This document shows, piece after piece, positions 18,541 to 64,000 of a DNA stretch of 64,000 bases. The position numbers were made by a program, and so were the translations under genes. The notes below the pieces were generated by a model that was not told where the DNA came from, ran no database searches, and worked only from the letters and a program-made list of their open reading frames with translations. How positions within the stretch are numbered: the first letter of the stretch is position 1; each line of letters begins with the position of its first letter. Where the stretch lies: contig JBAIAA010000537.1 of the NCBI GenBank assembly GCA_037893245.1, positions 930,001 to 994,000 of the forward strand. The letters are read 5' to 3'. This stretch comes from Crossaster papposus. Lineage: Eukaryota; Echinodermata; Asteroidea; Velatida; Solasteridae.

Positions 18541-18542
18541 TA

Positions 18543-18652: not shown

Positions 18653-18814
18653 GTGAGTATTTGTAAATAAAAATGGTAACGTCTTCAACTTCATGTATTG
18701 TGTTTGATAGCGTCGACAACTATGTGATATTTGGTATGTAAATATAATATACAGTTCTACTAAGTGTGGTGTAATGTTACATTTACTAGTGACTGTATTT
18801 CTGTTTTGATAAAG
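18653..18814 (+). other. Possible intron in the gag leader
   Basis: A strong donor (CG|GTGAGTATT) at 18653 and an acceptor after TTCTGTTTTGATAAAG at 18814 would remove 162 bases. An upstream ATG at 18601 opens 52 coding bases before the donor. Joining adds two bases ahead of the gag ATG and keeps frame, giving an 18-residue N-terminal extension. Unspliced, the upstream ORF stops at 18661-18663 after 20 codons. No transcript evidence is available. Confidence 0.35.
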
Positions 18815-18816
18815 GA

Positions 18817-32313: not shown

Positions 32314-33425
32314 TGAAGCCAACGTACGTGCGTCGTTAGAATTGCCTTTAATTTTGCGCTGCATTTTGTCGTCAATGTAATCGTTTATACCCCAACATTA
32401 AAAAAACCAAAAAAAACCAAACCTATACTCTATCTACGACATACCTGTTGATTGTTAATGTCGCAAGCTAGTTTGGTAAGTCCAATAACTTTAAAGTAGT
32501 TGTTCCGTCTATGGAACGGGGCCTGTACCGTAGATTCTTAAATCGCCGTATAAATGTATATGTTAACATTTTAGCTTACGTTTAATAAAAAAAAGAAAAC
32601 CACTTTCACATACATGAATTTTTATGAAACTTGGATGCAGTGACCCTTGGGTGAAAAGACATTTCGTCATCGAATTACTGAGGTAAAAGGTCATTGTTAA
32701 AATATTTCTTTCATAATTTGATGGATTTTTATGTCTATCGATTACCAGTATAAACAGTGTGTATAATTGGGTTTAATTAAAAGCCTATTCTGTGAATATT
32801 GACATTAAGACTAGCCACATATTAACAGCGAAATCACATTATATATTTTGTTAAATTGTACTCGCACAAAAAATAAGTCAATTTTTTTTTTGTTCGTTGA
32901 TACCCAAGAAAGACCTTCAAACTCTGAACAAATTTATCAAATTACATAAATAGTGGGTTTTTTTAAATAAAAAACGTACTGGTTATAATTATGTGTAGTG
33001 TACAGTGGTTGTTTTTCTGCAATTATACCCAACTCTTACTTCTAATGTTGTTTGACTGATAATTTTAAGCCTGTTTTATTACAAAAAAGTTACCTTTAGT
33101 GGGGTCACTGTAATACAATTACAATTTACAGGAAATTACCTGGCAGCCATGGTTGCCCAACGAATTCCCGTAAAATGTACGTTCACCGTAAATTGGCAGT
33201 AATGGATTTGTTCATTACTACGTATATGTACCGTAATGGTGTGGTATTGTTGAAGCGCCAATACAAGGCTTAAAACCACAAAATGTGTGTTTTTAGCATA
33301 TGACATTTTATTTATTTATTCATTTCTGGTTTTTAATTAGGGCAGCCCGTTCACATAAAATGTTGTCTCCCAAGATGCACTGAGCATAACATGACCGGAA
33401 AAAAATGATAAATTATTCAAATAAA
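32314..33425. other. AT-rich left flank of the satellite array
   Basis: No repeat of the array unit and no ORF of note. The DNA is unique as far as I can see up to the abrupt start of the array. Confidence 0.45.
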
Positions 33426-33474
33426 TATCGTGAGGTACGTTTAGGGACAGCTATGGACTTCAGGTTTGTGGCGC

Positions 33475-33482
33475 TATAAATA
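33475..33482 (+). promoter_or_regulatory. TATA box in the array unit (unit 1 shown)
   Basis: TATAAATA follows GTGGCGC and precedes a mixed-composition stretch, one of the few non-AT-rich parts of the unit. It recurs at +3350 in every unit. Whether it starts transcription is unknown. Confidence 0.3.
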
Positions 33483-33790
33483 ACAATGAAAGACAAGTCG
33501 AATGATTTGCACTGGCGTTCTTTCGTAATTCTCGAGAGTCTGCGGGGCCGTTCATCTATCTTTTTCTCTCTTCTGTTTTTCCCTTTCTTACTACAACTCT
33601 TTTCTTCTTTCTTTTCACGAACGTTTTCTCAATTTGTCGACGCCTATTTTTATTACCATAATTAAGATTTTTGTATCTTTATAAATAATTAATCAAATAT
33701 TTTTTATTTCAATAATTCTTGAGAACGAGATACGTCTAATATAAACAATTCGTTATTAACCTTATCGAATACTTGTATTACTCTGATGCT

Positions 33791-33852
33791 GCGCCACACA
33801 CCTTATTGATACGCGCCAACGATTGTTTTTAACACGCGCGCGTGTGGAGCGC
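33791..33852. repeat. CG-rich hairpin and Z-DNA-prone palindrome in the unit
   Basis: ACACGCGCGCGTGT (33832-33845) is a perfect palindrome of alternating purine-pyrimidine. GCGCCACAC (33791) can also pair with GTGTGGAGCGC (33842-33852), giving competing folds. It recurs in each unit. Confidence 0.6.
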
Positions 33853-33890
33853 ACATGGCTAGAATGATGATTCAAATTCCTGCGTCACGT

Positions 33891-34115
33891 TCACACTTCG
33901 CTCCTAGCTGCCATCGATGCTATACGCCTTTCTCTGTATACTAGCGCTATAACGCAATTTGACCGACTGCAAGGTATTTTTATGTTTACACTTGTTTTTC
34001 TCTCTCTCTCTAACACCACGTAAAAGTTCTTATGGGGTAGGTCGTGCAGTCTCGAGACGAAACCTACCCATGGTCTGAGCGAACTGCACCTGACGAGTTC
34101 TCGCTTTTTAGACAT
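33891..34115 (-). other. 74-aa ORF in the array unit (unit 1 shown)
   Basis: Starts MSKKRELVRC after an A-rich AACAAAA context and ends RIASMAARSEV. It is Arg/Lys-rich with four Cys or fewer, and has no signal peptide or membrane segment. Identical copies occur at +3350 steps up to 60691-60915. It overlaps a hairpin cluster, so its conservation may reflect DNA or RNA structure or simply array homogeneity. No family is recognised. Confidence 0.2.
34030..34112. repeat. Compound inverted repeats in the unit
   Basis: GGGTAGGT pairs with ACCTACCC across GTCTCGAGAC, itself a 10-bp palindrome. GTGCAGT within that loop can instead pair with ACTGCAC near 34085, and AGCGAACT near 34078 with the AGTTCTCGCT near 34097. 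At least three mutually exclusive stems occupy ~80 bases, as in a structured RNA or a cruciform site. Confidence 0.55.
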
Positions 34116-34350
34116 TTTTGTTTATGGTCTCCTTGTTGAAATTTACTAAAATTGACTGGTAAGAACTTTTACACGCCGGCATCTTTAATACCTATACTAA
34201 CCTGAACTCTGTAAATATTCTTGTACTTTAATCAGTTTGTTTCTTTACTGTCCTGATAAATACCCGCGCTGCGTCCTTATGGCCCAATGTATTTTTTCCT
34301 CAATATTCCAAAGTTCCCTCCACTTCTCTATAAAACATTAAATCCCACAG

Positions 34351-34557
34351 ATGTCATTCACTAACGCATCAAGGACCATTAACAAGATGGCTGTTTCTAA
34401 ACGCCTGAACGCTTGGAAGTTGGCCTACAGAAAGTCCTGCTCCACTCCATTCGGCAGATACATCAACCAAGTTCACAAAGATTGCATTCGTATAATTATT
34501 TCTTTTTACCCTAGGACTCTCGACATTATTTACTACTCTCGGCCTTATTTACCCTAG
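34351..34557 (+). other. 68-aa basic ORF in the array unit (unit 1 shown)
   Basis: Begins MSFTNASRTINK at an ATG just after CTATAAAACATTAAATCCCACAG, which looks both like a TATA box 21 bases upstream and like a 3' splice site ending in CAG. A second in-frame ATG (AACAAGATGG, 34387) has better context and would give a 56-aa protein starting MAVSKRLNAWK. The N-terminal 45 residues are basic and coding-like; the last ~20 run into the CCCTAGGACT repeats. It could be an exon rather than a whole gene. Copies are at +3350 steps to 61151-61357. No family is recognised. Confidence 0.25.
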
Positions 34558-34635
34558 GACTCTCAACTTATTTCCCCAAGGACTATGGGCTTTATTAACC
34601 CTAGGACTCTCGGCTTTATTGACCCTAAGACTCAG
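34498..34635 (+). repeat. CCCTAGGACTCTCGGCTTTATT short tandem repeats
   Basis: Four or five degenerate copies, ~25-40 bp apart, of a motif built on CCCTAGGACTCT and TTTATT. Present in all units. Confidence 0.75.
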
Positions 34636-34644
34636 TAATTGATT

Positions 34645-35098
34645 TCCTGACAATAACACGTCACTGTACAGTTATACAAGTAAAATAAATTATTGATTCC
34701 AGATAAATACAGATTACCGTTCGTCTGTGTGTTTTAGTTTGTTACCATTTTATTGTCTATTAACTTTCGTATCCATTCAATTATGCCCCATACATTTTTA
34801 GAATAAATGTTGTTTACGCTTTAAATAAACAAACAAACAAACTCCCCATCTAACTTGAACAAAATTAATTTCAAAAAAGGAATCTGGCCTATCTATAACC
34901 TTTATCTGGTACGCATCTTTGTACTTACTAATAACCTGTTTTCCTACTATCTATCGCTCATTGCCGAGTATGATATATGACTAAATCTTTTATAATTGGT
35001 CGTCATGCTCATCTAAAGGCAATCCTAGAGAGGTTTAAAACTCCTTGCTTCCACGGTGATAGATTTAACGTTTGATATATCGTGAGGTATATCTAGGA
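34645..35098 (+). repeat. Diverged internal duplication, copy B (unit 1)
   Basis: CCTGACAATAACACGTCAC to CTTTCGTATCC, and then TTGCCGAGTA to TATATCGTGAGGTAT, match 36528-36795 at about 75-80 percent by eye. Copy B carries ~185 extra bases (34775-34959), including an (AAAC)n run and TTTACGCTTTAAAT. Confidence 0.75.
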
Positions 35099-35399
35099 TG
35101 TGTAAACATTATGTTTACTCCGATCTTAACGACAACCAAGTTAACGATCATTAAATAATATGTATATGCTGGTTCTAGCGCAGCGTTTCTTCTGGTCATC
35201 GAGAGTAAGGAGACCTTTCCTCTTTATTTCTCCATCATTTCTACCCTAATATTACATTTCCTTCCTCATTACAACCTACCTTTTTACTGTCCCTCCATCC
35301 ACTTTTTTCTTGTTTTTCCTTCCATTTCTTAACTCACTTCTTTCAGCACAAACCAGATATCCATTTTTGAGTCCAACTACATTAACTAAAACGCTATCG

Positions 35400-36215
35400 T
35401 AATAATAATAAATGGTTTCTAATAAATATCCCCCAGCCAAAATGTTTTGTCCCCTCCATTCTTTACTCCTAAAAATTATCCCCTAACCAAGACGATTCGT
35501 CTACCAAGATGGTTCATCTACCTTATAATCCCCTCTAAAAAATATCCCCCTAGCTAAATCGGTTTGTCCACTCCATGTTTCCTTCTAAAAAAAATATTCC
35601 CTTAGCCAATATGATTCGACTACCATGATGGTTCATCTACTTTATATTTCCTTCTAAAAATTATCCCCCACCCGAAATGATTTGTACACTTCATGTTTCC
35701 TTCTAAAAATTATCCCCTAACCAAGACGATTCGTCTACCAAGATGGTTTATCTACTTTATAACCCCTTCTAAAAAATACCCCCCTAGCCAAAATGGTTTG
35801 TCCACTCCATGTTTCCTTCTAAAAAATATCCCCTTAGCAAAGATTATTCGACTACCATGATGGTTCATCTACTTTATATTTCCTTCTAAAAATTATCCCT
35901 AACCAAGACGGCTCGTCTACCAAGATGGTTCATCTACTTTATAACCCCTTCTAAAAATTATCCCCCTAGCCAAAATGTTTTGTCCACTCCATGTTTCCTT
36001 CTAAACAAAATATCCCATTAGCAAAGATGATTTGACTACCATGATGGTTTATCTACCTTATATTTCCTTCTAAAAATTATCCCCCACCCAAAATGATTTT
36101 TACACTTCATGTTTCCTTCTAAAAAATATACTCCAACCCTATGGTTAGTCTAGCCCCATAATTCCTTCTTAAAAATATCCTCCAACCTGATAGTTAGTCT
36201 AGCCCCGTAATTTCG
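35400..36215 (+). repeat. Alternating 50/66-bp minisatellite inside the unit (unit 1)
   Basis: Modules start at CCTTCTAAAAA(T/A)TATCCCC. One type (~66 bp) continues to GATTCG(T/A)CTACCA(A/T)GATGG; the other (~50 bp) continues to TTTGTCCACTCCATGTTT. They mostly alternate through at least ten modules, then shift to a third ~50-bp type with TTAGTCTAGCCCC that resumes after the A-rich tract (36300-36460). Confidence 0.85.
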
Positions 36216-36219
36216 TTAT

Positions 36220-36296
36220 AAAAAAAAAAAAAAAATAAAAATAAAAAAACAAAAAAAAATAAAAATAAAATAAAAAAAATAATAAAAAATAAAAGA
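36220..36296. repeat. A-rich tract, the main variable site among units
   Basis: Almost only A with scattered T and one C. Unit 1 has 15 or more As at the start, units 2-7 read A7-T there, unit 8 has a TT one base earlier, and unit 9 a TT one base later. Length is unchanged. Confidence 0.8.
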
Positions 36297-36527
36297 ATTT
36301 ATCTAACTTGATTGTTAGTCTAGCCCCGTGGTTCCTTATAAAAAATATCATCCAACTTGATAGTTAATCTAGCCCCATACTTCCTTCTAAAAATATCCTC
36401 CGATTTGATGGTTAATCTAGACCCATAATTCCTTCTTAAAAATATCCTCTAACTTGATGGAACGTTGAAGTACTTTCGTTTTATAATTATACCTTTATTT
36501 TGTACTCAAAATGTATATTACAAATGT

Positions 36528-36795
36528 CCCTGATAATAACTCGTCACATGTCCAGTTATAAAATTAAAATAAATTAACGATTCCTGACAAATATAGATTA
36601 TCGTTCGTCTTTTTGTTCAGTTTGTTACCATCTTATTGTCTATAAACTTTCGTATCCCCTCGTGCCGAGTTTGGCAGTGATTGGATCTTTATAACTGGTC
36701 GTCAAGCTCGTTAAATGGCACTTCCCGAACGGTTTAAACCCCCTTTCTCCACGAGGATCGTCTGATCGTCTAGCGTATCGTGAGGTACGTTTAGG
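36528..36795 (+). repeat. Diverged internal duplication, copy A (spans the unit 1/2 junction)
   Basis: The compact copy of the segment at 34645-35098, lacking the ~185-bp insert. Its right end, TATCGTGAGGTA, is the point where the array starts at 33426, so the unit boundary used here falls in this copy. Confidence 0.75.
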
Positions 36796-39700
36796 GACAG
36801 CTATGGACTTCAGGTTTGTGGCGCTATAAATAACAATGAAAGACAAGTCGAATGATTTGCACTGGCGTTCTTTCGTAATTCTCGAGAGTCTGCGGGGCCG
36901 TTCATCTATCTTTTTCTCTCTTCTGTTTTTCCCTTTCTTACTACAACTCTTTTCTTCTTTCTTTTCACGAACGTTTTCTCAATTTGTCGACGCCTATTTT
37001 TATTACCATAATTAAGATTTTTGTATCTTTATAAATAATTAATCAAATATTTTTTATTTCAATAATTCTTGAGAACGAGATACGTCTAATATAAACAATT
37101 CGTTATTAACCTTATCGAATACTTGTATTACTCTGATGCTGCGCCACACACCTTATTGATACGCGCCAACGATTGTTTTTAACACGCGCGCGTGTGGAGC
37201 GCACATGGCTAGAATGATGATTCAAATTCCTGCGTCACGTTCACACTTCGCTCCTAGCTGCCATCGATGCTATACGCCTTTCTCTGTATACTAGCGCTAT
37301 AACGCAATTTGACCGACTGCAAGGTATTTTTATGTTTACACTTGTTTTTCTCTCTCTCTCTAACACCACGTAAAAGTTCTTATGGGGTAGGTCGTGCAGT
37401 CTCGAGACGAAACCTACCCATGGTCTGAGCGAACTGCACCTGACGAGTTCTCGCTTTTTAGACATTTTTGTTTATGGTCTCCTTGTTGAAATTTACTAAA
37501 ATTGACTGGTAAGAACTTTTACACGCCGGCATCTTTAATACCTATACTAACCTGAACTCTGTAAATATTCTTGTACTTTAATCAGTTTGTTTCTTTACTG
37601 TCCTGATAAATACCCGCGCTGCGTCCTTATGGCCCAATGTATTTTTTCCTCAATATTCCAAAGTTCCCTCCACTTCTCTATAAAACATTAAATCCCACAG
37701 ATGTCATTCACTAACGCATCAAGGACCATTAACAAGATGGCTGTTTCTAAACGCCTGAACGCTTGGAAGTTGGCCTACAGAAAGTCCTGCTCCACTCCAT
37801 TCGGCAGATACATCAACCAAGTTCACAAAGATTGCATTCGTATAATTATTTCTTTTTACCCTAGGACTCTCGACATTATTTACTACTCTCGGCCTTATTT
37901 ACCCTAGGACTCTCAACTTATTTCCCCAAGGACTATGGGCTTTATTAACCCTAGGACTCTCGGCTTTATTGACCCTAAGACTCAGTAATTGATTTCCTGA
38001 CAATAACACGTCACTGTACAGTTATACAAGTAAAATAAATTATTGATTCCAGATAAATACAGATTACCGTTCGTCTGTGTGTTTTAGTTTGTTACCATTT
38101 TATTGTCTATTAACTTTCGTATCCATTCAATTATGCCCCATACATTTTTAGAATAAATGTTGTTTACGCTTTAAATAAACAAACAAACAAACTCCCCATC
38201 TAACTTGAACAAAATTAATTTCAAAAAAGGAATCTGGCCTATCTATAACCTTTATCTGGTACGCATCTTTGTACTTACTAATAACCTGTTTTCCTACTAT
38301 CTATCGCTCATTGCCGAGTATGATATATGACTAAATCTTTTATAATTGGTCGTCATGCTCATCTAAAGGCAATCCTAGAGAGGTTTAAAACTCCTTGCTT
38401 CCACGGTGATAGATTTAACGTTTGATATATCGTGAGGTATATCTAGGATGTGTAAACATTATGTTTACTCCGATCTTAACGACAACCAAGTTAACGATCA
38501 TTAAATAATATGTATATGCTGGTTCTAGCGCAGCGTTTCTTCTGGTCATCGAGAGTAAGGAGACCTTTCCTCTTTATTTCTCCATCATTTCTACCCTAAT
38601 ATTACATTTCCTTCCTCATTACAACCTACCTTTTTACTGTCCCTCCATCCACTTTTTTCTTGTTTTTCCTTCCATTTCTTAACTCACTTCTTTCAGCACA
38701 AACCAGATATCCATTTTTGAGTCCAACTACATTAACTAAAACGCTATCGTAATAATAATAAATGGTTTCTAATAAATATCCCCCAGCCAAAATGTTTTGT
38801 CCCCTCCATTCTTTACTCCTAAAAATTATCCCCTAACCAAGACGATTCGTCTACCAAGATGGTTCATCTACCTTATAATCCCCTCTAAAAAATATCCCCC
38901 TAGCTAAATCGGTTTGTCCACTCCATGTTTCCTTCTAAAAAAAATATTCCCTTAGCCAATATGATTCGACTACCATGATGGTTCATCTACTTTATATTTC
39001 CTTCTAAAAATTATCCCCCACCCGAAATGATTTGTACACTTCATGTTTCCTTCTAAAAATTATCCCCTAACCAAGACGATTCGTCTACCAAGATGGTTTA
39101 TCTACTTTATAACCCCTTCTAAAAAATACCCCCCTAGCCAAAATGGTTTGTCCACTCCATGTTTCCTTCTAAAAAATATCCCCTTAGCAAAGATTATTCG
39201 ACTACCATGATGGTTCATCTACTTTATATTTCCTTCTAAAAATTATCCCTAACCAAGACGGCTCGTCTACCAAGATGGTTCATCTACTTTATAACCCCTT
39301 CTAAAAATTATCCCCCTAGCCAAAATGTTTTGTCCACTCCATGTTTCCTTCTAAACAAAATATCCCATTAGCAAAGATGATTTGACTACCATGATGGTTT
39401 ATCTACCTTATATTTCCTTCTAAAAATTATCCCCCACCCAAAATGATTTTTACACTTCATGTTTCCTTCTAAAAAATATACTCCAACCCTATGGTTAGTC
39501 TAGCCCCATAATTCCTTCTTAAAAATATCCTCCAACCTGATAGTTAGTCTAGCCCCGTAATTTCGTTATAAAAAAAATAAAAAAAATAAAATAAAAAAAC
39601 AAAAAAAAATAAAAATAAAATAAAAAAAATAATAAAAAATAAAAGAATTTATCTAACTTGATTGTTAGTCTAGCCCCGTGGTTCCTTATAAAAAATATCA

Positions 39701-42700
39701 TCCAACTTGATAGTTAATCTAGCCCCATACTTCCTTCTAAAAATATCCTCCGATTTGATGGTTAATCTAGACCCATAATTCCTTCTTAAAAATATCCTCT
39801 AACTTGATGGAACGTTGAAGTACTTTCGTTTTATAATTATACCTTTATTTTGTACTCAAAATGTATATTACAAATGTCCCTGATAATAACTCGTCACATG
39901 TCCAGTTATAAAATTAAAATAAATTAACGATTCCTGACAAATATAGATTATCGTTCGTCTTTTTGTTCAGTTTGTTACCATCTTATTGTCTATAAACTTT
40001 CGTATCCCCTCGTGCCGAGTTTGGCAGTGATTGGATCTTTATAACTGGTCGTCAAGCTCGTTAAATGGCACTTCCCGAACGGTTTAAACCCCCTTTCTCC
40101 ACGAGGATCGTCTGATCGTCTAGCGTATCGTGAGGTACGTTTAGGGACAGCTATGGACTTCAGGTTTGTGGCGCTATAAATAACAATGAAAGACAAGTCG
40201 AATGATTTGCACTGGCGTTCTTTCGTAATTCTCGAGAGTCTGCGGGGCCGTTCATCTATCTTTTTCTCTCTTCTGTTTTTCCCTTTCTTACTACAACTCT
40301 TTTCTTCTTTCTTTTCACGAACGTTTTCTCAATTTGTCGACGCCTATTTTTATTACCATAATTAAGATTTTTGTATCTTTATAAATAATTAATCAAATAT
40401 TTTTTATTTCAATAATTCTTGAGAACGAGATACGTCTAATATAAACAATTCGTTATTAACCTTATCGAATACTTGTATTACTCTGATGCTGCGCCACACA
40501 CCTTATTGATACGCGCCAACGATTGTTTTTAACACGCGCGCGTGTGGAGCGCACATGGCTAGAATGATGATTCAAATTCCTGCGTCACGTTCACACTTCG
40601 CTCCTAGCTGCCATCGATGCTATACGCCTTTCTCTGTATACTAGCGCTATAACGCAATTTGACCGACTGCAAGGTATTTTTATGTTTACACTTGTTTTTC
40701 TCTCTCTCTCTAACACCACGTAAAAGTTCTTATGGGGTAGGTCGTGCAGTCTCGAGACGAAACCTACCCATGGTCTGAGCGAACTGCACCTGACGAGTTC
40801 TCGCTTTTTAGACATTTTTGTTTATGGTCTCCTTGTTGAAATTTACTAAAATTGACTGGTAAGAACTTTTACACGCCGGCATCTTTAATACCTATACTAA
40901 CCTGAACTCTGTAAATATTCTTGTACTTTAATCAGTTTGTTTCTTTACTGTCCTGATAAATACCCGCGCTGCGTCCTTATGGCCCAATGTATTTTTTCCT
41001 CAATATTCCAAAGTTCCCTCCACTTCTCTATAAAACATTAAATCCCACAGATGTCATTCACTAACGCATCAAGGACCATTAACAAGATGGCTGTTTCTAA
41101 ACGCCTGAACGCTTGGAAGTTGGCCTACAGAAAGTCCTGCTCCACTCCATTCGGCAGATACATCAACCAAGTTCACAAAGATTGCATTCGTATAATTATT
41201 TCTTTTTACCCTAGGACTCTCGACATTATTTACTACTCTCGGCCTTATTTACCCTAGGACTCTCAACTTATTTCCCCAAGGACTATGGGCTTTATTAACC
41301 CTAGGACTCTCGGCTTTATTGACCCTAAGACTCAGTAATTGATTTCCTGACAATAACACGTCACTGTACAGTTATACAAGTAAAATAAATTATTGATTCC
41401 AGATAAATACAGATTACCGTTCGTCTGTGTGTTTTAGTTTGTTACCATTTTATTGTCTATTAACTTTCGTATCCATTCAATTATGCCCCATACATTTTTA
41501 GAATAAATGTTGTTTACGCTTTAAATAAACAAACAAACAAACTCCCCATCTAACTTGAACAAAATTAATTTCAAAAAAGGAATCTGGCCTATCTATAACC
41601 TTTATCTGGTACGCATCTTTGTACTTACTAATAACCTGTTTTCCTACTATCTATCGCTCATTGCCGAGTATGATATATGACTAAATCTTTTATAATTGGT
41701 CGTCATGCTCATCTAAAGGCAATCCTAGAGAGGTTTAAAACTCCTTGCTTCCACGGTGATAGATTTAACGTTTGATATATCGTGAGGTATATCTAGGATG
41801 TGTAAACATTATGTTTACTCCGATCTTAACGACAACCAAGTTAACGATCATTAAATAATATGTATATGCTGGTTCTAGCGCAGCGTTTCTTCTGGTCATC
41901 GAGAGTAAGGAGACCTTTCCTCTTTATTTCTCCATCATTTCTACCCTAATATTACATTTCCTTCCTCATTACAACCTACCTTTTTACTGTCCCTCCATCC
42001 ACTTTTTTCTTGTTTTTCCTTCCATTTCTTAACTCACTTCTTTCAGCACAAACCAGATATCCATTTTTGAGTCCAACTACATTAACTAAAACGCTATCGT
42101 AATAATAATAAATGGTTTCTAATAAATATCCCCCAGCCAAAATGTTTTGTCCCCTCCATTCTTTACTCCTAAAAATTATCCCCTAACCAAGACGATTCGT
42201 CTACCAAGATGGTTCATCTACCTTATAATCCCCTCTAAAAAATATCCCCCTAGCTAAATCGGTTTGTCCACTCCATGTTTCCTTCTAAAAAAAATATTCC
42301 CTTAGCCAATATGATTCGACTACCATGATGGTTCATCTACTTTATATTTCCTTCTAAAAATTATCCCCCACCCGAAATGATTTGTACACTTCATGTTTCC
42401 TTCTAAAAATTATCCCCTAACCAAGACGATTCGTCTACCAAGATGGTTTATCTACTTTATAACCCCTTCTAAAAAATACCCCCCTAGCCAAAATGGTTTG
42501 TCCACTCCATGTTTCCTTCTAAAAAATATCCCCTTAGCAAAGATTATTCGACTACCATGATGGTTCATCTACTTTATATTTCCTTCTAAAAATTATCCCT
42601 AACCAAGACGGCTCGTCTACCAAGATGGTTCATCTACTTTATAACCCCTTCTAAAAATTATCCCCCTAGCCAAAATGTTTTGTCCACTCCATGTTTCCTT

Positions 42701-45700
42701 CTAAACAAAATATCCCATTAGCAAAGATGATTTGACTACCATGATGGTTTATCTACCTTATATTTCCTTCTAAAAATTATCCCCCACCCAAAATGATTTT
42801 TACACTTCATGTTTCCTTCTAAAAAATATACTCCAACCCTATGGTTAGTCTAGCCCCATAATTCCTTCTTAAAAATATCCTCCAACCTGATAGTTAGTCT
42901 AGCCCCGTAATTTCGTTATAAAAAAAATAAAAAAAATAAAATAAAAAAACAAAAAAAAATAAAAATAAAATAAAAAAAATAATAAAAAATAAAAGAATTT
43001 ATCTAACTTGATTGTTAGTCTAGCCCCGTGGTTCCTTATAAAAAATATCATCCAACTTGATAGTTAATCTAGCCCCATACTTCCTTCTAAAAATATCCTC
43101 CGATTTGATGGTTAATCTAGACCCATAATTCCTTCTTAAAAATATCCTCTAACTTGATGGAACGTTGAAGTACTTTCGTTTTATAATTATACCTTTATTT
43201 TGTACTCAAAATGTATATTACAAATGTCCCTGATAATAACTCGTCACATGTCCAGTTATAAAATTAAAATAAATTAACGATTCCTGACAAATATAGATTA
43301 TCGTTCGTCTTTTTGTTCAGTTTGTTACCATCTTATTGTCTATAAACTTTCGTATCCCCTCGTGCCGAGTTTGGCAGTGATTGGATCTTTATAACTGGTC
43401 GTCAAGCTCGTTAAATGGCACTTCCCGAACGGTTTAAACCCCCTTTCTCCACGAGGATCGTCTGATCGTCTAGCGTATCGTGAGGTACGTTTAGGGACAG
43501 CTATGGACTTCAGGTTTGTGGCGCTATAAATAACAATGAAAGACAAGTCGAATGATTTGCACTGGCGTTCTTTCGTAATTCTCGAGAGTCTGCGGGGCCG
43601 TTCATCTATCTTTTTCTCTCTTCTGTTTTTCCCTTTCTTACTACAACTCTTTTCTTCTTTCTTTTCACGAACGTTTTCTCAATTTGTCGACGCCTATTTT
43701 TATTACCATAATTAAGATTTTTGTATCTTTATAAATAATTAATCAAATATTTTTTATTTCAATAATTCTTGAGAACGAGATACGTCTAATATAAACAATT
43801 CGTTATTAACCTTATCGAATACTTGTATTACTCTGATGCTGCGCCACACACCTTATTGATACGCGCCAACGATTGTTTTTAACACGCGCGCGTGTGGAGC
43901 GCACATGGCTAGAATGATGATTCAAATTCCTGCGTCACGTTCACACTTCGCTCCTAGCTGCCATCGATGCTATACGCCTTTCTCTGTATACTAGCGCTAT
44001 AACGCAATTTGACCGACTGCAAGGTATTTTTATGTTTACACTTGTTTTTCTCTCTCTCTCTAACACCACGTAAAAGTTCTTATGGGGTAGGTCGTGCAGT
44101 CTCGAGACGAAACCTACCCATGGTCTGAGCGAACTGCACCTGACGAGTTCTCGCTTTTTAGACATTTTTGTTTATGGTCTCCTTGTTGAAATTTACTAAA
44201 ATTGACTGGTAAGAACTTTTACACGCCGGCATCTTTAATACCTATACTAACCTGAACTCTGTAAATATTCTTGTACTTTAATCAGTTTGTTTCTTTACTG
44301 TCCTGATAAATACCCGCGCTGCGTCCTTATGGCCCAATGTATTTTTTCCTCAATATTCCAAAGTTCCCTCCACTTCTCTATAAAACATTAAATCCCACAG
44401 ATGTCATTCACTAACGCATCAAGGACCATTAACAAGATGGCTGTTTCTAAACGCCTGAACGCTTGGAAGTTGGCCTACAGAAAGTCCTGCTCCACTCCAT
44501 TCGGCAGATACATCAACCAAGTTCACAAAGATTGCATTCGTATAATTATTTCTTTTTACCCTAGGACTCTCGACATTATTTACTACTCTCGGCCTTATTT
44601 ACCCTAGGACTCTCAACTTATTTCCCCAAGGACTATGGGCTTTATTAACCCTAGGACTCTCGGCTTTATTGACCCTAAGACTCAGTAATTGATTTCCTGA
44701 CAATAACACGTCACTGTACAGTTATACAAGTAAAATAAATTATTGATTCCAGATAAATACAGATTACCGTTCGTCTGTGTGTTTTAGTTTGTTACCATTT
44801 TATTGTCTATTAACTTTCGTATCCATTCAATTATGCCCCATACATTTTTAGAATAAATGTTGTTTACGCTTTAAATAAACAAACAAACAAACTCCCCATC
44901 TAACTTGAACAAAATTAATTTCAAAAAAGGAATCTGGCCTATCTATAACCTTTATCTGGTACGCATCTTTGTACTTACTAATAACCTGTTTTCCTACTAT
45001 CTATCGCTCATTGCCGAGTATGATATATGACTAAATCTTTTATAATTGGTCGTCATGCTCATCTAAAGGCAATCCTAGAGAGGTTTAAAACTCCTTGCTT
45101 CCACGGTGATAGATTTAACGTTTGATATATCGTGAGGTATATCTAGGATGTGTAAACATTATGTTTACTCCGATCTTAACGACAACCAAGTTAACGATCA
45201 TTAAATAATATGTATATGCTGGTTCTAGCGCAGCGTTTCTTCTGGTCATCGAGAGTAAGGAGACCTTTCCTCTTTATTTCTCCATCATTTCTACCCTAAT
45301 ATTACATTTCCTTCCTCATTACAACCTACCTTTTTACTGTCCCTCCATCCACTTTTTTCTTGTTTTTCCTTCCATTTCTTAACTCACTTCTTTCAGCACA
45401 AACCAGATATCCATTTTTGAGTCCAACTACATTAACTAAAACGCTATCGTAATAATAATAAATGGTTTCTAATAAATATCCCCCAGCCAAAATGTTTTGT
45501 CCCCTCCATTCTTTACTCCTAAAAATTATCCCCTAACCAAGACGATTCGTCTACCAAGATGGTTCATCTACCTTATAATCCCCTCTAAAAAATATCCCCC
45601 TAGCTAAATCGGTTTGTCCACTCCATGTTTCCTTCTAAAAAAAATATTCCCTTAGCCAATATGATTCGACTACCATGATGGTTCATCTACTTTATATTTC

Positions 45701-51700: not shown

Positions 51701-54700
51701 CTATCGCTCATTGCCGAGTATGATATATGACTAAATCTTTTATAATTGGTCGTCATGCTCATCTAAAGGCAATCCTAGAGAGGTTTAAAACTCCTTGCTT
51801 CCACGGTGATAGATTTAACGTTTGATATATCGTGAGGTATATCTAGGATGTGTAAACATTATGTTTACTCCGATCTTAACGACAACCAAGTTAACGATCA
51901 TTAAATAATATGTATATGCTGGTTCTAGCGCAGCGTTTCTTCTGGTCATCGAGAGTAAGGAGACCTTTCCTCTTTATTTCTCCATCATTTCTACCCTAAT
52001 ATTACATTTCCTTCCTCATTACAACCTACCTTTTTACTGTCCCTCCATCCACTTTTTTCTTGTTTTTCCTTCCATTTCTTAACTCACTTCTTTCAGCACA
52101 AACCAGATATCCATTTTTGAGTCCAACTACATTAACTAAAACGCTATCGTAATAATAATAAATGGTTTCTAATAAATATCCCCCAGCCAAAATGTTTTGT
52201 CCCCTCCATTCTTTACTCCTAAAAATTATCCCCTAACCAAGACGATTCGTCTACCAAGATGGTTCATCTACCTTATAATCCCCTCTAAAAAATATCCCCC
52301 TAGCTAAATCGGTTTGTCCACTCCATGTTTCCTTCTAAAAAAAATATTCCCTTAGCCAATATGATTCGACTACCATGATGGTTCATCTACTTTATATTTC
52401 CTTCTAAAAATTATCCCCCACCCGAAATGATTTGTACACTTCATGTTTCCTTCTAAAAATTATCCCCTAACCAAGACGATTCGTCTACCAAGATGGTTTA
52501 TCTACTTTATAACCCCTTCTAAAAAATACCCCCCTAGCCAAAATGGTTTGTCCACTCCATGTTTCCTTCTAAAAAATATCCCCTTAGCAAAGATTATTCG
52601 ACTACCATGATGGTTCATCTACTTTATATTTCCTTCTAAAAATTATCCCTAACCAAGACGGCTCGTCTACCAAGATGGTTCATCTACTTTATAACCCCTT
52701 CTAAAAATTATCCCCCTAGCCAAAATGTTTTGTCCACTCCATGTTTCCTTCTAAACAAAATATCCCATTAGCAAAGATGATTTGACTACCATGATGGTTT
52801 ATCTACCTTATATTTCCTTCTAAAAATTATCCCCCACCCAAAATGATTTTTACACTTCATGTTTCCTTCTAAAAAATATACTCCAACCCTATGGTTAGTC
52901 TAGCCCCATAATTCCTTCTTAAAAATATCCTCCAACCTGATAGTTAGTCTAGCCCCGTAATTTCGTTATAAAAAAAATAAAAAAAATAAAATAAAAAAAC
53001 AAAAAAAAATAAAAATAAAATAAAAAAAATAATAAAAAATAAAAGAATTTATCTAACTTGATTGTTAGTCTAGCCCCGTGGTTCCTTATAAAAAATATCA
53101 TCCAACTTGATAGTTAATCTAGCCCCATACTTCCTTCTAAAAATATCCTCCGATTTGATGGTTAATCTAGACCCATAATTCCTTCTTAAAAATATCCTCT
53201 AACTTGATGGAACGTTGAAGTACTTTCGTTTTATAATTATACCTTTATTTTGTACTCAAAATGTATATTACAAATGTCCCTGATAATAACTCGTCACATG
53301 TCCAGTTATAAAATTAAAATAAATTAACGATTCCTGACAAATATAGATTATCGTTCGTCTTTTTGTTCAGTTTGTTACCATCTTATTGTCTATAAACTTT
53401 CGTATCCCCTCGTGCCGAGTTTGGCAGTGATTGGATCTTTATAACTGGTCGTCAAGCTCGTTAAATGGCACTTCCCGAACGGTTTAAACCCCCTTTCTCC
53501 ACGAGGATCGTCTGATCGTCTAGCGTATCGTGAGGTACGTTTAGGGACAGCTATGGACTTCAGGTTTGTGGCGCTATAAATAACAATGAAAGACAAGTCG
53601 AATGATTTGCACTGGCGTTCTTTCGTAATTCTCGAGAGTCTGCGGGGCCGTTCATCTATCTTTTTCTCTCTTCTGTTTTTCCCTTTCTTACTACAACTCT
53701 TTTCTTCTTTCTTTTCACGAACGTTTTCTCAATTTGTCGACGCCTATTTTTATTACCATAATTAAGATTTTTGTATCTTTATAAATAATTAATCAAATAT
53801 TTTTTATTTCAATAATTCTTGAGAACGAGATACGTCTAATATAAACAATTCGTTATTAACCTTATCGAATACTTGTATTACTCTGATGCTGCGCCACACA
53901 CCTTATTGATACGCGCCAACGATTGTTTTTAACACGCGCGCGTGTGGAGCGCACATGGCTAGAATGATGATTCAAATTCCTGCGTCACGTTCACACTTCG
54001 CTCCTAGCTGCCATCGATGCTATACGCCTTTCTCTGTATACTAGCGCTATAACGCAATTTGACCGACTGCAAGGTATTTTTATGTTTACACTTGTTTTTC
54101 TCTCTCTCTCTAACACCACGTAAAAGTTCTTATGGGGTAGGTCGTGCAGTCTCGAGACGAAACCTACCCATGGTCTGAGCGAACTGCACCTGACGAGTTC
54201 TCGCTTTTTAGACATTTTTGTTTATGGTCTCCTTGTTGAAATTTACTAAAATTGACTGGTAAGAACTTTTACACGCCGGCATCTTTAATACCTATACTAA
54301 CCTGAACTCTGTAAATATTCTTGTACTTTAATCAGTTTGTTTCTTTACTGTCCTGATAAATACCCGCGCTGCGTCCTTATGGCCCAATGTATTTTTTCCT
54401 CAATATTCCAAAGTTCCCTCCACTTCTCTATAAAACATTAAATCCCACAGATGTCATTCACTAACGCATCAAGGACCATTAACAAGATGGCTGTTTCTAA
54501 ACGCCTGAACGCTTGGAAGTTGGCCTACAGAAAGTCCTGCTCCACTCCATTCGGCAGATACATCAACCAAGTTCACAAAGATTGCATTCGTATAATTATT
54601 TCTTTTTACCCTAGGACTCTCGACATTATTTACTACTCTCGGCCTTATTTACCCTAGGACTCTCAACTTATTTCCCCAAGGACTATGGGCTTTATTAACC

Positions 54701-57700
54701 CTAGGACTCTCGGCTTTATTGACCCTAAGACTCAGTAATTGATTTCCTGACAATAACACGTCACTGTACAGTTATACAAGTAAAATAAATTATTGATTCC
54801 AGATAAATACAGATTACCGTTCGTCTGTGTGTTTTAGTTTGTTACCATTTTATTGTCTATTAACTTTCGTATCCATTCAATTATGCCCCATACATTTTTA
54901 GAATAAATGTTGTTTACGCTTTAAATAAACAAACAAACAAACTCCCCATCTAACTTGAACAAAATTAATTTCAAAAAAGGAATCTGGCCTATCTATAACC
55001 TTTATCTGGTACGCATCTTTGTACTTACTAATAACCTGTTTTCCTACTATCTATCGCTCATTGCCGAGTATGATATATGACTAAATCTTTTATAATTGGT
55101 CGTCATGCTCATCTAAAGGCAATCCTAGAGAGGTTTAAAACTCCTTGCTTCCACGGTGATAGATTTAACGTTTGATATATCGTGAGGTATATCTAGGATG
55201 TGTAAACATTATGTTTACTCCGATCTTAACGACAACCAAGTTAACGATCATTAAATAATATGTATATGCTGGTTCTAGCGCAGCGTTTCTTCTGGTCATC
55301 GAGAGTAAGGAGACCTTTCCTCTTTATTTCTCCATCATTTCTACCCTAATATTACATTTCCTTCCTCATTACAACCTACCTTTTTACTGTCCCTCCATCC
55401 ACTTTTTTCTTGTTTTTCCTTCCATTTCTTAACTCACTTCTTTCAGCACAAACCAGATATCCATTTTTGAGTCCAACTACATTAACTAAAACGCTATCGT
55501 AATAATAATAAATGGTTTCTAATAAATATCCCCCAGCCAAAATGTTTTGTCCCCTCCATTCTTTACTCCTAAAAATTATCCCCTAACCAAGACGATTCGT
55601 CTACCAAGATGGTTCATCTACCTTATAATCCCCTCTAAAAAATATCCCCCTAGCTAAATCGGTTTGTCCACTCCATGTTTCCTTCTAAAAAAAATATTCC
55701 CTTAGCCAATATGATTCGACTACCATGATGGTTCATCTACTTTATATTTCCTTCTAAAAATTATCCCCCACCCGAAATGATTTGTACACTTCATGTTTCC
55801 TTCTAAAAATTATCCCCTAACAAAGACGATTCGTCTACCAAGATGGTTTATCTACTTTATAACCCCTTCTAAAAAATACCCCCCTAGCCAAAATGGTTTG
55901 TCCACTCCATGTTTCCTTCTAAAAAATATCCCCTTAGCAAAGATTATTCGACTACCATGATGGTTCATCTACTTTATATTTCCTTCTAAAAATTATCCCT
56001 AACCAAGACGGCTCGTCTACCAAGATGGTTCATCTACTTTATAACCCCTTCTAAAAATTATCCCCCTAGCCAAAATGTTTTGTCCACTCCATGTTTCCTT
56101 CTAAACAAAATATCCCATTAGCAAAGATGATTTGACTACCATGATGGTTTATCTACCTTATATTTCCTTCTAAAAATTATCCCCCACCCAAAATGATTTT
56201 TACACTTCATGTTTCCTTCTAAAAAATATACTCCAACCCTATGGTTAGTCTAGCCCCATAATTCCTTCTTAAAAATATCCTCCAACCTGATAGTTAGTCT
56301 AGCCCCGTAATTTCGTTATAAAAAAAATAAAAAAAATAAAATAAAAAAACAAAAAAAAATAAAAATAAAATAAAAAAAATAATAAAAAATAAAAGAATTT
56401 ATCTAACTTGATTGTTAGTCTAGCCCCGTGGTTCCTTATAAAAAATATCATCCAACTTTTTAGTTAATCTAGCCCCATACTTCCTTCTAAAAATATCCTC
56501 CGATTTGATGGTTAATCTAGACCCATAATTCCTTCTTAAAAATATCCTCTAACTTGATGGAACGTTGAAGTACTTTCGTTTTATAATTATACCTTTATTT
56601 TGTACTCAAAATGTATATTACAAATGTCCCTGATAATAACTCGTCACATGTCCAGTTATAAAATTAAAATAAATTAACGATTCCTGACAAATATAGATTA
56701 TCGTTCGTCTTTTTGTTCAGTTTGTTACCATCTTATTGTCTATAAACTTTCGTATCCCCTCGTGCCGAGTTTGGCAGTGATTGGATCTTTATAACTGGTC
56801 GTCAAGCTCGTTAAATGGCACTTCCCGAACGGTTTAAACCCCCTTTCTCCACGAGGATCGTCTGATCGTCTAGCGTATCGTGAGGTACGTTTAGGGACAG
56901 CTATGGACTTCAGGTTTGTGGCGCTATAAATAACAATGAAAGACAAGTCGAATGATTTGCACTGGCGTTCTTTCGTAATTCTCGAGAGTCTGCGGGGCCG
57001 TTCATCTATCTTTTTCTCTCTTCTGTTTTTCCCTTTCTTACTACAACTCTTTTCTTCTTTCTTTTCACGAACGTTTTCTCAATTTGTCGACGCCTATTTT
57101 TATTACCATAATTAAGATTTTTGTATCTTTATAAATAATTAATCAAATATTTTTTATTTCAATAATTCTTGAGAACGAGATACGTCTAATATAAACAATT
57201 CGTTATTAACCTTATCGAATACTTGTATTACTCTGATGCTGCGCCACACACCTTATTGATACGCGCCAACGATTGTTTTTAACACGCGCGCGTGTGGAGC
57301 GCACATGGCTAGAATGATGATTCAAATTCCTGCGTCACGTTCACACTTCGCTCCTAGCTGCCATCGATGCTATACGCCTTTCTCTGTATACTAGCGCTAT
57401 AACGCAATTTGACCGACTGCAAGGTATTTTTATGTTTACACTTGTTTTTCTCTCTCTCTCTAACACCACGTAAAAGTTCTTATGGGGTAGGTCGTGCAGT
57501 CTCGAGACGAAACCTACCCATGGTCTGAGCGAACTGCACCTGACGAGTTCTCGCTTTTTAGACATTTTTGTTTATGGTCTCCTTGTTGAAATTTACTAAA
57601 ATTGACTGGTAAGAACTTTTACACGCCGGCATCTTTAATACCTATACTAACCTGAACTCTGTAAATATTCTTGTACTTTAATCAGTTTGTTTCTTTACTG

Positions 57701-60700
57701 TCCTGATAAATACCCGCGCTGCGTCCTTATGGCCCAATGTATTTTTTCCTCAATATTCCAAAGTTCCCTCCACTTCTCTATAAAACATTAAATCCCACAG
57801 ATGTCATTCACTAACGCATCAAGGACCATTAACAAGATGGCTGTTTCTAAACGCCTGAACGCTTGGAAGTTGGCCTACAGAAAGTCCTGCTCCACTCCAT
57901 TCGGCAGATACATCAACCAAGTTCACAAAGATTGCATTCGTATAATTATTTCTTTTTACCCTAGGACTCTCGACATTATTTACTACTCTCGGCCTTATTT
58001 ACCCTAGGACTCTCAACTTATTTCCCCAAGGACTATGGGCTTTATTAACCCTAGGACTCTCGGCTTTATTGACCCTAAGACTCAGTAATTGATTTCCTGA
58101 CAATAACACGTCACTGTACAGTTATACAAGTAAAATAAATTATTGATTCCAGATAAATACAGATTACCGTTCGTCTGTGTGTTTTAGTTTGTTACCATTT
58201 TATTGTCTATTAACTTTCGTATCCATTCAATTATGCCCCATACATTTTTAGAATAAATGTTGTTTACGCTTTAAATAAACAAACAAACAAACTCCCCATC
58301 TAACTTGAACAAAATTAATTTCAAAAAAGGAATCTGGCCTATCTATAACCTTTATCTGGTACGCATCTTTGTACTTACTAATAACCTGTTTTCCTACTAT
58401 CTATCGCTCATTGCCGAGTATGATATATGACTAAATCTTTTATAATTGGTCGTCATGCTCATCTAAAGGCAATCCTAGAGAGGTTTAAAACTCCTTGCTT
58501 CCACGGTGATAGATTTAACGTTTGATATATCGTGAGGTATATCTAGGATGTGTAAACATTATGTTTACTCCGATCTTAACGACAACCAAGTTAACGATCA
58601 TTAAATAATATGTATATGCTGGTTCTAGCGCAGCGTTTCTTCTGGTCATCGAGAGTAAGGAGACCTTTCCTCTTTATTTCTCCATCATTTCTACCCTAAT
58701 ATTACATTTCCTTCCTCATTACAACCTACCTTTTTACTGTCCCTCCATCCACTTTTTTCTTGTTTTTCCTTCCATTTCTTAACTCACTTCTTTCAGCACA
58801 AACCAGATATCCATTTTTGAGTCCAACTACATTAACTAAAACGCTATCGTAATAATAATAAATGGTTTCTAATAAATATCCCCCAGCCAAAATGTTTTGT
58901 CCCCTCCATTCTTTACTCCTAAAAATTATCCCCTAACCAAGACGATTCGTCTACCAAGATGGTTCATCTACCTTATAATCCCCTCTAAAAAATATCCCCC
59001 TAGCTAAATCGGTTTGTCCACTCCATGTTTCCTTCTAAAAAAAATATTCCCTTAGCCAATATGATTCGACTACCATGATGGTTCATCTACTTTATATTTC
59101 CTTCTAAAAATTATCCCCCACCCGAAATGATTTGTACACTTCATGTTTCCTTCTAAAAATTATCCCCTAACCAAGACGATTCGTCTACCAAGATGGTTTA
59201 TCTACTTTATAACCCCTTCTAAAAAATACCCCCCTAGCCAAAATGGTTTGTCCACTCCATGTTTCCTTCTAAAAAATATCCCCTTAGCAAAGATTATTCG
59301 ACTACCATGATGGTTCATCTACTTTATATTTCCTTCTAAAAATTATCCCTAACCAAGACGGCTCGTCTACCAAGATGGTTCATCTACTTTATAACCCCTT
59401 CTAAAAATTATCCCCCTAGCCAAAATGTTTTGTCCACTCCATGTTTCCTTCTAAACAAAATATCCCATTAGCAAAGATGATTTGACTACCATGATGGTTT
59501 ATCTACCTTATATTTCCTTCTAAAAATTATCCCCCACCCAAAATGATTTTTACACTTCATGTTTCCTTCTAAAAAATATACTCCAACCCTATGGTTAGTC
59601 TAGCCCCATAATTCCTTCTTAAAAATATCCTCCAACCTGATAGTTAGTCTAGCCCCGTAATTTCGTTATAAAAAAATTAAAAAAAATAAAATAAAAAAAC
59701 AAAAAAAAATAAAAATAAAATAAAAAAAATAATAAAAAATAAAAGAATTTATCTAACTTGATTGTTAGTCTAGCCCCGTGGTTCCTTATAAAAAATATCA
59801 TCCAACTTGATAGTTAATCTAGCCCCATACTTCCTTCTAAAAATATCCTCCGATTTGATGGTTAATCTAGACCCATAATTCCTTCTTAAAAATATCCTCT
59901 AACTTGATGGAACGTTGAAGTACTTTCGTTTTATAATTATACCTTTATTTTGTACTCAAAATGTATATTACAAATGTCCCTGATAATAACTCGTCACATG
60001 TCCAGTTATAAAATTAAAATAAATTAACGATTCCTGACAAATATAGATTATCGTTCGTCTTTTTGTTCAGTTTGTTACCATCTTATTGTCTATAAACTTT
60101 CGTATCCCCTCGTGCCGAGTTTGGCAGTGATTGGATCTTTATAACTGGTCGTCAAGCTCGTTAAATGGCACTTCCCGAACGGTTTAAACCCCCTTTCTCC
60201 ACGAGGATCGTCTGATCGTCTAGCGTATCGTGAGGTACGTTTAGGGACAGCTATGGACTTCAGGTTTGTGGCGCTATAAATAACAATGAAAGACAAGTCG
60301 AATGATTTGCACTGGCGTTCTTTCGTAATTCTCGAGAGTCTGCGGGGCCGTTCATCTATCTTTTTCTCTCTTCTGTTTTTCCCTTTCTTACTACAACTCT
60401 TTTCTTCTTTCTTTTCACGAACGTTTTCTCAATTTGTCGACGCCTATTTTTATTACCATAATTAAGATTTTTGTATCTTTATAAATAATTAATCAAATAT
60501 TTTTTATTTCAATAATTCTTGAGAACGAGATACGTCTAATATAAACAATTCGTTATTAACCTTATCGAATACTTGTATTACTCTGATGCTGCGCCACACA
60601 CCTTATTGATACGCGCCAACGATTGTTTTTAACACGCGCGCGTGTGGAGCGCACATGGCTAGAATGATGATTCAAATTCCTGCGTCACGTTCACACTTCG

Positions 60701-63700
60701 CTCCTAGCTGCCATCGATGCTATACGCCTTTCTCTGTATACTAGCGCTATAACGCAATTTGACCGACTGCAAGGTATTTTTATGTTTACACTTGTTTTTC
60801 TCTCTCTCTCTAACACCACGTAAAAGTTCTTATGGGGTAGGTCGTGCAGTCTCGAGACGAAACCTACCCATGGTCTGAGCGAACTGCACCTGACGAGTTC
60901 TCGCTTTTTAGACATTTTTGTTTATGGTCTCCTTGTTGAAATTTACTAAAATTGACTGGTAAGAACTTTTACACGCCGGCATCTTTAATACCTATACTAA
61001 CCTGAACTCTGTAAATATTCTTGTACTTTAATCAGTTTGTTTCTTTACTGTCCTGATAAATACCCGCGCTGCGTCCTTATGGCCCAATGTATTTTTTCCT
61101 CAATATTCCAAAGTTCCCTCCACTTCTCTATAAAACATTAAATCCCACAGATGTCATTCACTAACGCATCAAGGACCATTAACAAGATGGCTGTTTCTAA
61201 ACGCCTGAACGCTTGGAAGTTGGCCTACAGAAAGTCCTGCTCCACTCCATTCGGCAGATACATCAACCAAGTTCACAAAGATTGCATTCGTATAATTATT
61301 TCTTTTTACCCTAGGACTCTCGACATTATTTACTACTCTCGGCCTTATTTACCCTAGGACTCTCAACTTATTTCCCCAAGGACTATGGGCTTTATTAACC
61401 CTAGGACTCTCGGCTTTATTGACCCTAAGACTCAGTAATTGATTTCCTGACAATAACACGTCACTGTACAGTTATACAAGTAAAATAAATTATTGATTCC
61501 AGATAAATACAGATTACCGTTCGTCTGTGTGTTTTAGTTTGTTACCATTTTATTGTCTATTAACTTTCGTATCCATTCAATTATGCCCCATACATTTTTA
61601 GAATAAATGTTGTTTACGCTTTAAATAAACAAACAAACAAACTCCCCATCTAACTTGAACAAAATTAATTTCAAAAAAGGAATCTGGCCTATCTATAACC
61701 TTTATCTGGTACGCATCTTTGTACTTACTAATAACCTGTTTTCCTACTATCTATCGCTCATTGCCGAGTATGATATATGACTAAATCTTTTATAATTGGT
61801 CGTCATGCTCATCTAAAGGCAATCCTAGAGAGGTTTAAAACTCCTTGCTTCCACGGTGATAGATTTAACGTTTGATATATCGTGAGGTATATCTAGGATG
61901 TGTAAACATTATGTTTACTCCGATCTTAACGACAACCAAGTTAACGATCATTAAATAATATGTATATGCTGGTTCTAGCGCAGCGTTTCTTCTGGTCATC
62001 GAGAGTAAGGAGACCTTTCCTCTTTATTTCTCCATCATTTCTACCCTAATATTACATTTCCTTCCTCATTACAACCTACCTTTTTACTGTCCCTCCATCC
62101 ACTTTTTTCTTGTTTTTCCTTCCATTTCTTAACTCACTTCTTTCAGCACAAACCAGATATCCATTTTTGAGTCCAACTACATTAACTAAAACGCTATCGT
62201 AATAATAATAAATGGTTTCTAATAAATATCCCCCAGCCAAAATGTTTTGTCCCCTCCATTCTTTTCTCCTAAAAATTATCCCCTAACCAAGACGATTCGT
62301 CTACCAAGATGGTTCATCTACCTTATAATCCCCTCTAAAAAATATCCCCCTAGCTAAATCGGTTTGTCCACTCCATGTTTCCTTCTAAAAAAAATATTCC
62401 CTTAGCCAATATGATTCGACTACCATGATGGTTCATCTACTTTATATTTCCTTCTAAAAATTATCCCCCACCCGAAATGATTTGTACACTTCATGTTTCC
62501 TTCTAAAAATTATCCCCTAACCAAGACGATTCGTCTACCAAGATGGTTTATCTACTTTATAACCCCTTCTAAAAAATACCCCCCTAGCCAAAATGGTTTG
62601 TCCACTCCATGTTTCCTTCTAAAAAATATCCCCTTAGCAAAGATTATTCGACTACCATGATGGTTCATCTACTTTATATTTCCTTCTAAAAATTATCCCT
62701 AACCAAGACGGCTCGTCTACCAAGATGGTTCATCTACTTTATAACCCCTTCTAAAAATTATCCCCCTAGCCAAAATGTTTTGTCCACTCCATGTTTCCTT
62801 CTAAACAAAATATCCCATTAGCAAAGATGATTTGACTACCATGATGGTTTATCTACCTTATATTTCCTTCTAAAAATTATCCCCCACCCAAAATGATTTT
62901 TACACTTCATGTTTCCTTCTAAAAAATATACTCCAACCCTATGGTTAGTCTAGCCCCATAATTCCTTCTTAAAAATATCCTCCAACCTGATAGTTAGTCT
63001 AGCCCCGTAATTTCGTTATAAAAAAAATTAAAAAAATAAAATAAAAAAACAAAAAAAAATAAAAATAAAATAAAAAAAATAATAAAAAATAAAAGAATTT
63101 ATCTAACTTGATTGTTAGTCTAGCCCCGTGGTTCCTTATAAAAAATATCATCCAACTTGATAGTTAATCTAGCCCCATACTTCCTTCTAAAAATATCCTC
63201 CGATTTGATGGTTAATCTAGACCCATAATTCCTTCTTAAAAATATCCTCTAACTTGATGGAACGTTGAAGTACTTTCGTTTTATAATTATACCTTTATTT
63301 TGTACTCAAAATGTATATTACAAATGTCCCTGATAATAACTCGTCACATGTCCAGTTATAAAATTAAAATAAATTAACGATTCCTGACAAATATAGATTA
63401 TCGTTCGTCTTTTTGTTCAGTTTGTTACCATCTTATTGTCTATAAACTTTCGTATCCCCTCGTGCCGAGTTTGGCAGTGATTGGATCTTTATAACTGGTC
63501 GTCAAGCTCGTTAAATGGCACTTCCCGAACGGTTTAAACCCCCTTTCTCCACGAGGATCGTCTGATCGTCTAGCGTATCGTGAGGTACGTTTAGGGACAG
63601 CTATGGACTTCAGGTTTGTGGCGCTATAAATAACAATGAAAGACAAGTCGAATGATTTGCACTGGCGTTCTTTCGTAATTCTCGAGAGTCTGCGGGGCCG

Positions 63701-64000
63701 TTCATCTATCTTTTTCTCTCTTCTGTTTTTCCCTTTCTTACTACAACTCTTTTCTTCTTTCTTTTCACGAACGTTTTCTCAATTTGTCGACGCCTATTTT
63801 TATTACCATAATTAAGATTTTTGTATCTTTATAAATAATTAATCAAATATTTTTTATTTCAATAATTCTTGAGAACGAGATACGTCTAATATAAACAATT
63901 CGTTATTAACCTTATCGAATACTTGTATTACTCTGATGCTGCGCCACACACCTTATTGATACGCGCCAACGATTGTTTTTAACACGCGCGCGTGTGGAGC

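Follow-up and report, generated by a model that had tools for sequence, protein, structure and literature searches.

A 3350-bp tandem array in Crossaster papposus is probably a recently spread noncoding macrosatellite built of diverged half-units

The window analyzed here is a 64,000-nucleotide stretch of the Crossaster papposus genome (contig JBAIAA010000537.1, positions 930,001 to 994,000, forward strand). Its left 33 kb contains an apparently young LTR retrotransposon at 18137 to 24723, whose 404-bp LTRs (18137 to 18540 and 24320 to 24723) differ at one position and whose long gag and pol frames are open; by eye it is of the Ty3/gypsy type, and ATTG on both outer sides is a likely target-site duplication. 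The same flank holds a DDE_3 transposase fragment, a minisatellite at 4667 to 4864 (three copies of a 61-bp period), and a MITE-like foldback element of ~0.62 kb at 25509 to 26131, the long, near-perfect inverted ends of which start with GGGTGTCCACATAAAA. By eye, frames at 13957 to 14336 resemble a Penelope-like element in its GIY-YIG region. A 7tm_1 receptor match lies on the minus strand at 26560 to 27156, and an overlapping frame at 27039 to 27515 looks by eye like the N-terminal part of this receptor while having no 7tm match; the copy at 26560 to 27515 may be broken or contain an intron, or the assembly may have slipped there. Taken together, the contents of the flank point to an animal genome.

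Self-comparison revealed that about half of the window is occupied by a tandem array that continues past the window end:

33426 to 64000, plus strand: tandem array, a probable macrosatellite
33426 to 33437, plus strand: left edge of the array with the motif TATCGTGAGGTA, which is found again in every unit at both half-unit boundaries
33426, 36776, 40126, 43476, 46826, 50176, 53526, 56876, and 60226, plus strand: starts of full units 1 to 9

From 33426 to the window end, nine full units of 3350 bp follow one another head to tail, with a last, partial unit of 425 bp that begins at 63576, giving 9.1 copies within the window. This bears out the sequence-only reading, which had placed a tandem array of 3350-bp units from 33426 onward and counted at least nine copies; because the partial unit runs off the window end, "at least nine" is the correct count. 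The period is exactly 3350, without any difference in unit length even across a 75-bp A-rich tract, and the self-match at an offset of 3350 is 0.999. The left junction with nonrepeated DNA is sharp: positions 33417 to 33425 mismatch the sequence one period on at every position, and the array starts precisely with TATCGTGAGGTA. No unit-like sequence was found in the left flank, which shares no 16-mer with the unit on either strand and gave no BLASTN match (E 0.01), a result in favor of a macrosatellite.

Identity among the units is high. Comparison of the nine full units showed 10 variable columns out of 3350, each a variant of one unit. Units 2, 3, 4, and 6 (four of nine) are identical to the consensus, while units 1 and 7 have three variable columns each, unit 9 has two, and units 5 and 8 have one each. 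Half of these columns fall in the A-rich tract (unit positions 2802 to 2812), and the others are at unit columns 2009, 2040, 2297, 2934, and 2935. The finding of one-unit variants and no others speaks for a burst of amplification or very strong homogenization, although with 10 variants this is a weak test.

The internal organization of the unit is illustrated by unit 2 (36776 to 40125):

37370 to 37522, plus strand: 13-bp perfect inverted repeat (37370 to 37382 and 37510 to 37522) enclosing smaller hairpins, a weak RNA-structure candidate
37634 to 37710, plus strand: promoter-like set of CCAAT (37634 to 37638), TATAAA (37679 to 37684), and initiator-like TCATTCA (37704 to 37710)
37737 to 37907, plus strand: 56-amino-acid (aa) open reading frame (ORF) that follows the initiator-like site and starts with an ATG in strong context; searches gave no homologue
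37855 to 37983, plus strand: 24-bp imperfect repeat, 5.6 copies, overlapping the 3' end of the 56-aa ORF
37996 to 38439, plus strand: module A, with AATAAA (38034 to 38039), a GU-rich stretch (38074 to 38093), and TATCGTGAGGTA (38428 to 38439)
38767 to 39810, plus strand: nested minisatellite with periods of 49 to 234 bp, broken by the A-rich tract (39570 to 39644)
39879 to 40137, plus strand: module A' and TATCGTGAGGTA at 40126 to 40137, which is the start of unit 3

The unit is a diverged dimer. Its first half measures about 1652 bp (~1.65 kb) and its second about 1698 bp (~1.70 kb), and both end with a related module followed by TATCGTGAGGTA. The motif stands at unit positions 1 and 1653; its 10-base core occurs at 19 places in the window, all within the array and all at these two unit positions, and a search of the whole window found none on the minus strand. 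Module A (unit ~1221 to 1652) and module A' (~3104 to 3350) are 86% identical over 130 bp and 73% identical over 94 bp; A contains an additional ~190 bp that A' lacks. The 3' part of A scored 60 against A', compared with a null of 14.5 ± 2.3 that reached this value in 0 of 300 trials. For the sequences that follow the motif in the two halves, the score was 35 (null, 21.4 ± 3.0; 0 of 300), a match that is C/T rich and less informative. We use the term "dimer" on the basis of the end modules and the motif, since the middles of the two halves are without clear homology. A' shares with A the AATAAA and the sequence around it, which would fit either a duplicated terminator or plain shared descent. 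The minisatellite and the A-rich tract sit in the second half-unit; together with the 24-bp repeat, the minisatellite confirms an earlier remark that the unit contains nested repeats.

Alpha-satellite DNA consists of diverged 171-bp monomers inside near-identical higher-order units. The Crossaster unit resembles it in having diverged subunits within a near-identical larger unit, a pattern that holds here for the end modules only. It differs in the size of the subunit, ~1.65 to 1.70 kb rather than 171 bp, and in containing no CENP-B box by the strict pattern.

The unit is AT rich and strongly strand asymmetric, with 12.7% G and 23.0% C on the plus strand. Its GC skew is −0.287, whereas overlapping windows of this size in the flank average −0.001 (standard deviation, 0.048; range, −0.086 to 0.086). 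The two half-units have skews of −0.183 and −0.401, both outside the flank range at that size (−0.117 to 0.12). At a finer scale, the skew is negative in all 10 of the 335-bp bins, only four of which, those from unit position 1676 to 3015 that contain the minisatellite, lie outside the flank range for bins of this size (−0.373 to 0.311). When the unit was divided into 11 segments, two were nonnegative: the inverted-repeat region (0.029) and the A-rich tract (0.0). Across the unit and 150 bp of the following one, the minus strand has 43 runs of at least three G's and the plus strand has 6; no G-quadruplex was found by the strict rule. The pyrimidine share of the unit, 0.58, is not peculiar to it; that of the first 3350 bp of the window is 0.59, and those of the next eight flank bins are 0.47 to 0.51. 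The asymmetry is strongest in the minisatellite and extends beyond it. It may reflect transcription or replication of ancestral copies in a constant direction over a long time, a suggestion that is weaker outside the minisatellite. CpG is not depleted in the unit (1.07, compared with 0.84 in the flank); by 335-bp bin, the ratio is 1.76 and 1.35 in the first two bins and 1.59 in the last, with a lowest value of 0.38.

Searches for the genes that usually reside in multikilobase arrays were negative. Rfam at gathering scores detected no RNA gene and no rRNA family in the window, and for one unit searched at E values up to 10, it returned only three matches (E 3.6 to 5.2), far below gathering scores. 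ARAGORN found no tRNA. An array with an rRNA, 5S, snRNA, or tRNA gene in each unit was therefore not detected by these two programs. A TCATTCA-like sequence is the cap motif of sea-urchin histone genes, and the layout of the TATA box and TCATTCA prompted us to consider a histone array. We rejected this candidate: there was no Pfam histone match among the ORFs scanned, no histone 3' stem-loop in the unit in a search for 6-bp stems with defined loop types, and no significant similarity of ORFs to histones, the observed values being equaled by 47 (H2B), 22 (H3), 141 (H4), and 252 (H2A) of 300 shuffles. A literature search found no paper joining "PyCATTCPu" with "histone." As far as Rfam, ARAGORN, Pfam, and the histone comparison reach, the view from sequence alone that the unit lacks rRNA, snRNA, 5S, and histone genes holds.

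Protein-level searches gave a similar result. ORFs are present in the unit, as had been noted, but the longest one with an ATG is 74 aa, a chance-level length reached by 35% of 300 Markov sequences; a longer frame (112 codons) spans the unit junction and has no ATG. Pfam yielded no match for the larger frames scanned, namely, three ATG ORFs, five distinct stop-to-stop frames of at least 60 codons, and the 56-aa form; among the seven ATG ORFs of at least 35 aa in the unit, four (38, 44, 50, and 55 aa) fell outside the scans as such. A word-based protein search found no homologue for the two ORFs queried. Nothing pointed to a bacterial, archaeal, or viral origin: PHROGs gave no match for three ORFs scanned, and of three patterns of 20 to 25 bases from the unit, two had 0 exact matches in viral contigs and one had 0 in prokaryote genome contigs.

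We also inspected the unit by eye for features of mobile elements and found no convincing terminal inverted repeats or Helitron ends. Helitron copies have a 5' TC, a 3' CTRR, and a short hairpin close upstream of the latter; the unit ends in CTAGCG before TATCG, and the nearest palindrome, GGTTTAAACC, is >30 bases upstream. A retroposed origin suggested by the A-rich tract was rejected, likewise by eye, because this tract sits within the 49-bp minisatellite.

The promoter-like set and the ORF raise the question of whether the unit is an amplified small gene. In unit coordinates, CCAAT (859), TATAAA (904), TCATTCA (929), the ATG (962), AATAAA (1259), and the GU-rich stretch (~1300) follow one another in the order of a gene with a complete polymerase II (Pol II) promoter, a 31-nucleotide leader, the 56-aa ORF, and a poly(A) site, which would give an mRNA of ~0.35 kb. 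In this reading, each of the at least nine repeats would be a Pol II unit for a lineage-specific small basic peptide, the array would serve dosage, and the strand asymmetry would reflect long one-way transcription or copying. The TATA box seen earlier is real as a motif, at unit 904. To judge the pattern, we used 1500 order-2 random units generated from unit and from flank composition, on both strands. A TATA box and TCATTCA-type initiator at canonical spacing were seen once, compared with 0.029 expected per unit; the same pair with an upstream CCAAT was seen once (0.007 or 0.002 expected), as was the pair with a strong-context ATG and an ORF of at least 50 codons (0 or 0.0007 expected). Further, the third position is the GC-richest in the first 35 codons (0.57, compared with 0.37 and 0.46), no variable column falls inside the ORF, and the undepleted CpG, at 1.76 in the first 335 bp, would also fit transcription. 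However, the pattern was defined after the sequence had been seen, and the null is too low, as the real 33-kb flank contains two TATA-initiator pairs against an expectation of about 0.3, none of them with a CCAAT or with an ORF. The expected counts therefore overstate the case for a gene. The peptide itself argues against it as well: the 68-aa form has no homologue in a word-based search of 5.8 billion proteins, the 56-aa form has no Pfam match and one chance-level PDB match (E 1.1), and the end of the ORF runs into the 24-bp repeat. We regard an amplified small gene, in the form of a dosage-amplified orphan gene, as unlikely.

The other explanations have less to commend them. An array of noncoding RNA units, for example, of the spliced-leader, small nuclear, or piRNA-precursor type, could account for the strand asymmetry and for the 13-bp perfect inverted repeat with its enclosed hairpins, which was matched in 2.5% of 200 random units. 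The fold of this region has a z score of just −1.7 on the plus strand and −1.8 on the minus strand, with 14 and 7 of 200 shuffles, respectively, equaling it; thus, the "structured segments" reported from the sequence alone are present but are weakly above chance. The only Rfam matches to the unit fall far under gathering scores, and neither strand contains a splice donor followed within ~110 bases by an Sm site (0.41 expected by chance), on which ground we rejected a spliced-leader array. RNA units of any of these types seem distinctly unlikely. Alternatively, the assembler might have repeated one or a few real copies. Near-identity among the units may in part be an assembly product, and the assembly may have affected their number as well; the four identical units and the clustering of variable columns in the A-rich tract would fit such an artifact, yet some of the units are marked by variants of their own beyond this tract and the left junction is sharp, making it very unlikely that the array arose in this way. 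rDNA intergenic spacers have duplicated modules with subrepeats, a layout that the unit resembles, and a satellite could derive from such a spacer if spacer-promoter-like modules and minisatellite subrepeats were amplified without the rRNA genes. In a moss, the rDNA spacer is described as containing a high-copy tandem repeat that is transcribed (PMC6302065). With no rRNA family match in the window, or in the unit at E values up to 10, we consider a spacer origin highly improbable.

The exact period, the near-identity of the units, the one-unit variants, the related modules A and A' with their motif, the array edge at this motif, and the lack of any detected gene lead us to conclude that the array is probably a recently spread noncoding macrosatellite in which two old, diverged half-units make up a higher-order dimeric unit. 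A large satellite, one of several possibilities raised by the sequence-only reading, is thus the best-supported one. The sequence may also be new; a literature search, judged by titles and the starts of abstracts, found no account of a 3350-bp or 3.35-kb tandem satellite array. For this macrosatellite, we propose that an ancestral unit of ~1.65 kb was duplicated long ago, after which one half would have gained the minisatellite and one end module an insertion of ~190 bp. A single dimer would then have multiplied recently and too fast for its copies to acquire distinguishing mutations. Rolling-circle copying, break-induced copying, and repeated unequal exchange are candidate routes, which one visible edge and one allele do not tell apart. 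The array is most likely kept by homogenization alone, and no sequence-specific job would be needed.

The earlier reading had implied that multikilobase units without the usual genes are rare, a view contradicted by human arrays, namely, the gene-free megasatellites and DXZ4 (as described in PMC2588610) and D4Z4 (as described in PMC13138017). A human survey reports 96 arrays, nearly all with units of >2 kb, of which 53 include genes or repeated exons. Gene-free megasatellites are also described there, with unequal crossing over as their presumed mode of expansion (PMC2588610). In that account, DXZ4 on the human X has 50 to 100 copies of 3-kb units and is said to hold no known transposons. The Crossaster array resembles DXZ4, as described there, in unit size, uninterrupted head-to-tail order, and the lack of an obvious protein gene in each unit. 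This likeness is one of layout; the Crossaster unit differs in being AT rich and strand asymmetric with a nested minisatellite. D4Z4, with units given as 3.3 kb (PMC13138017, PMC12376486), is similar in unit size and tandem order but is described as carrying the double-homeobox retrogene DUX4, whereas the Crossaster ORFs scanned have no known domain. The human gene-free megasatellites (PMC2588610) and SST1 arrays (PMC3018141) are likewise presented as multikilobase tandem arrays, the megasatellites being marked, according to the survey, by known transposable elements. One report describes macrosatellites as having no known role and found all four of those it studied to be expressed, with testis the site of strongest expression for three (PMC3018141). 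Gene-free multikilobase tandem arrays are an accepted class in these sources, and the Crossaster array fits the definition as far as it is testable.

The array provides a clean example of a multikilobase satellite with an apparently recent amplification and an edge that is visible at the motif marking its internal half-unit boundaries. This makes the mechanism by which such arrays start testable through comparison of alleles and relatives. If expressed, the small gene would be an orphan that had arisen or been amplified within a satellite.
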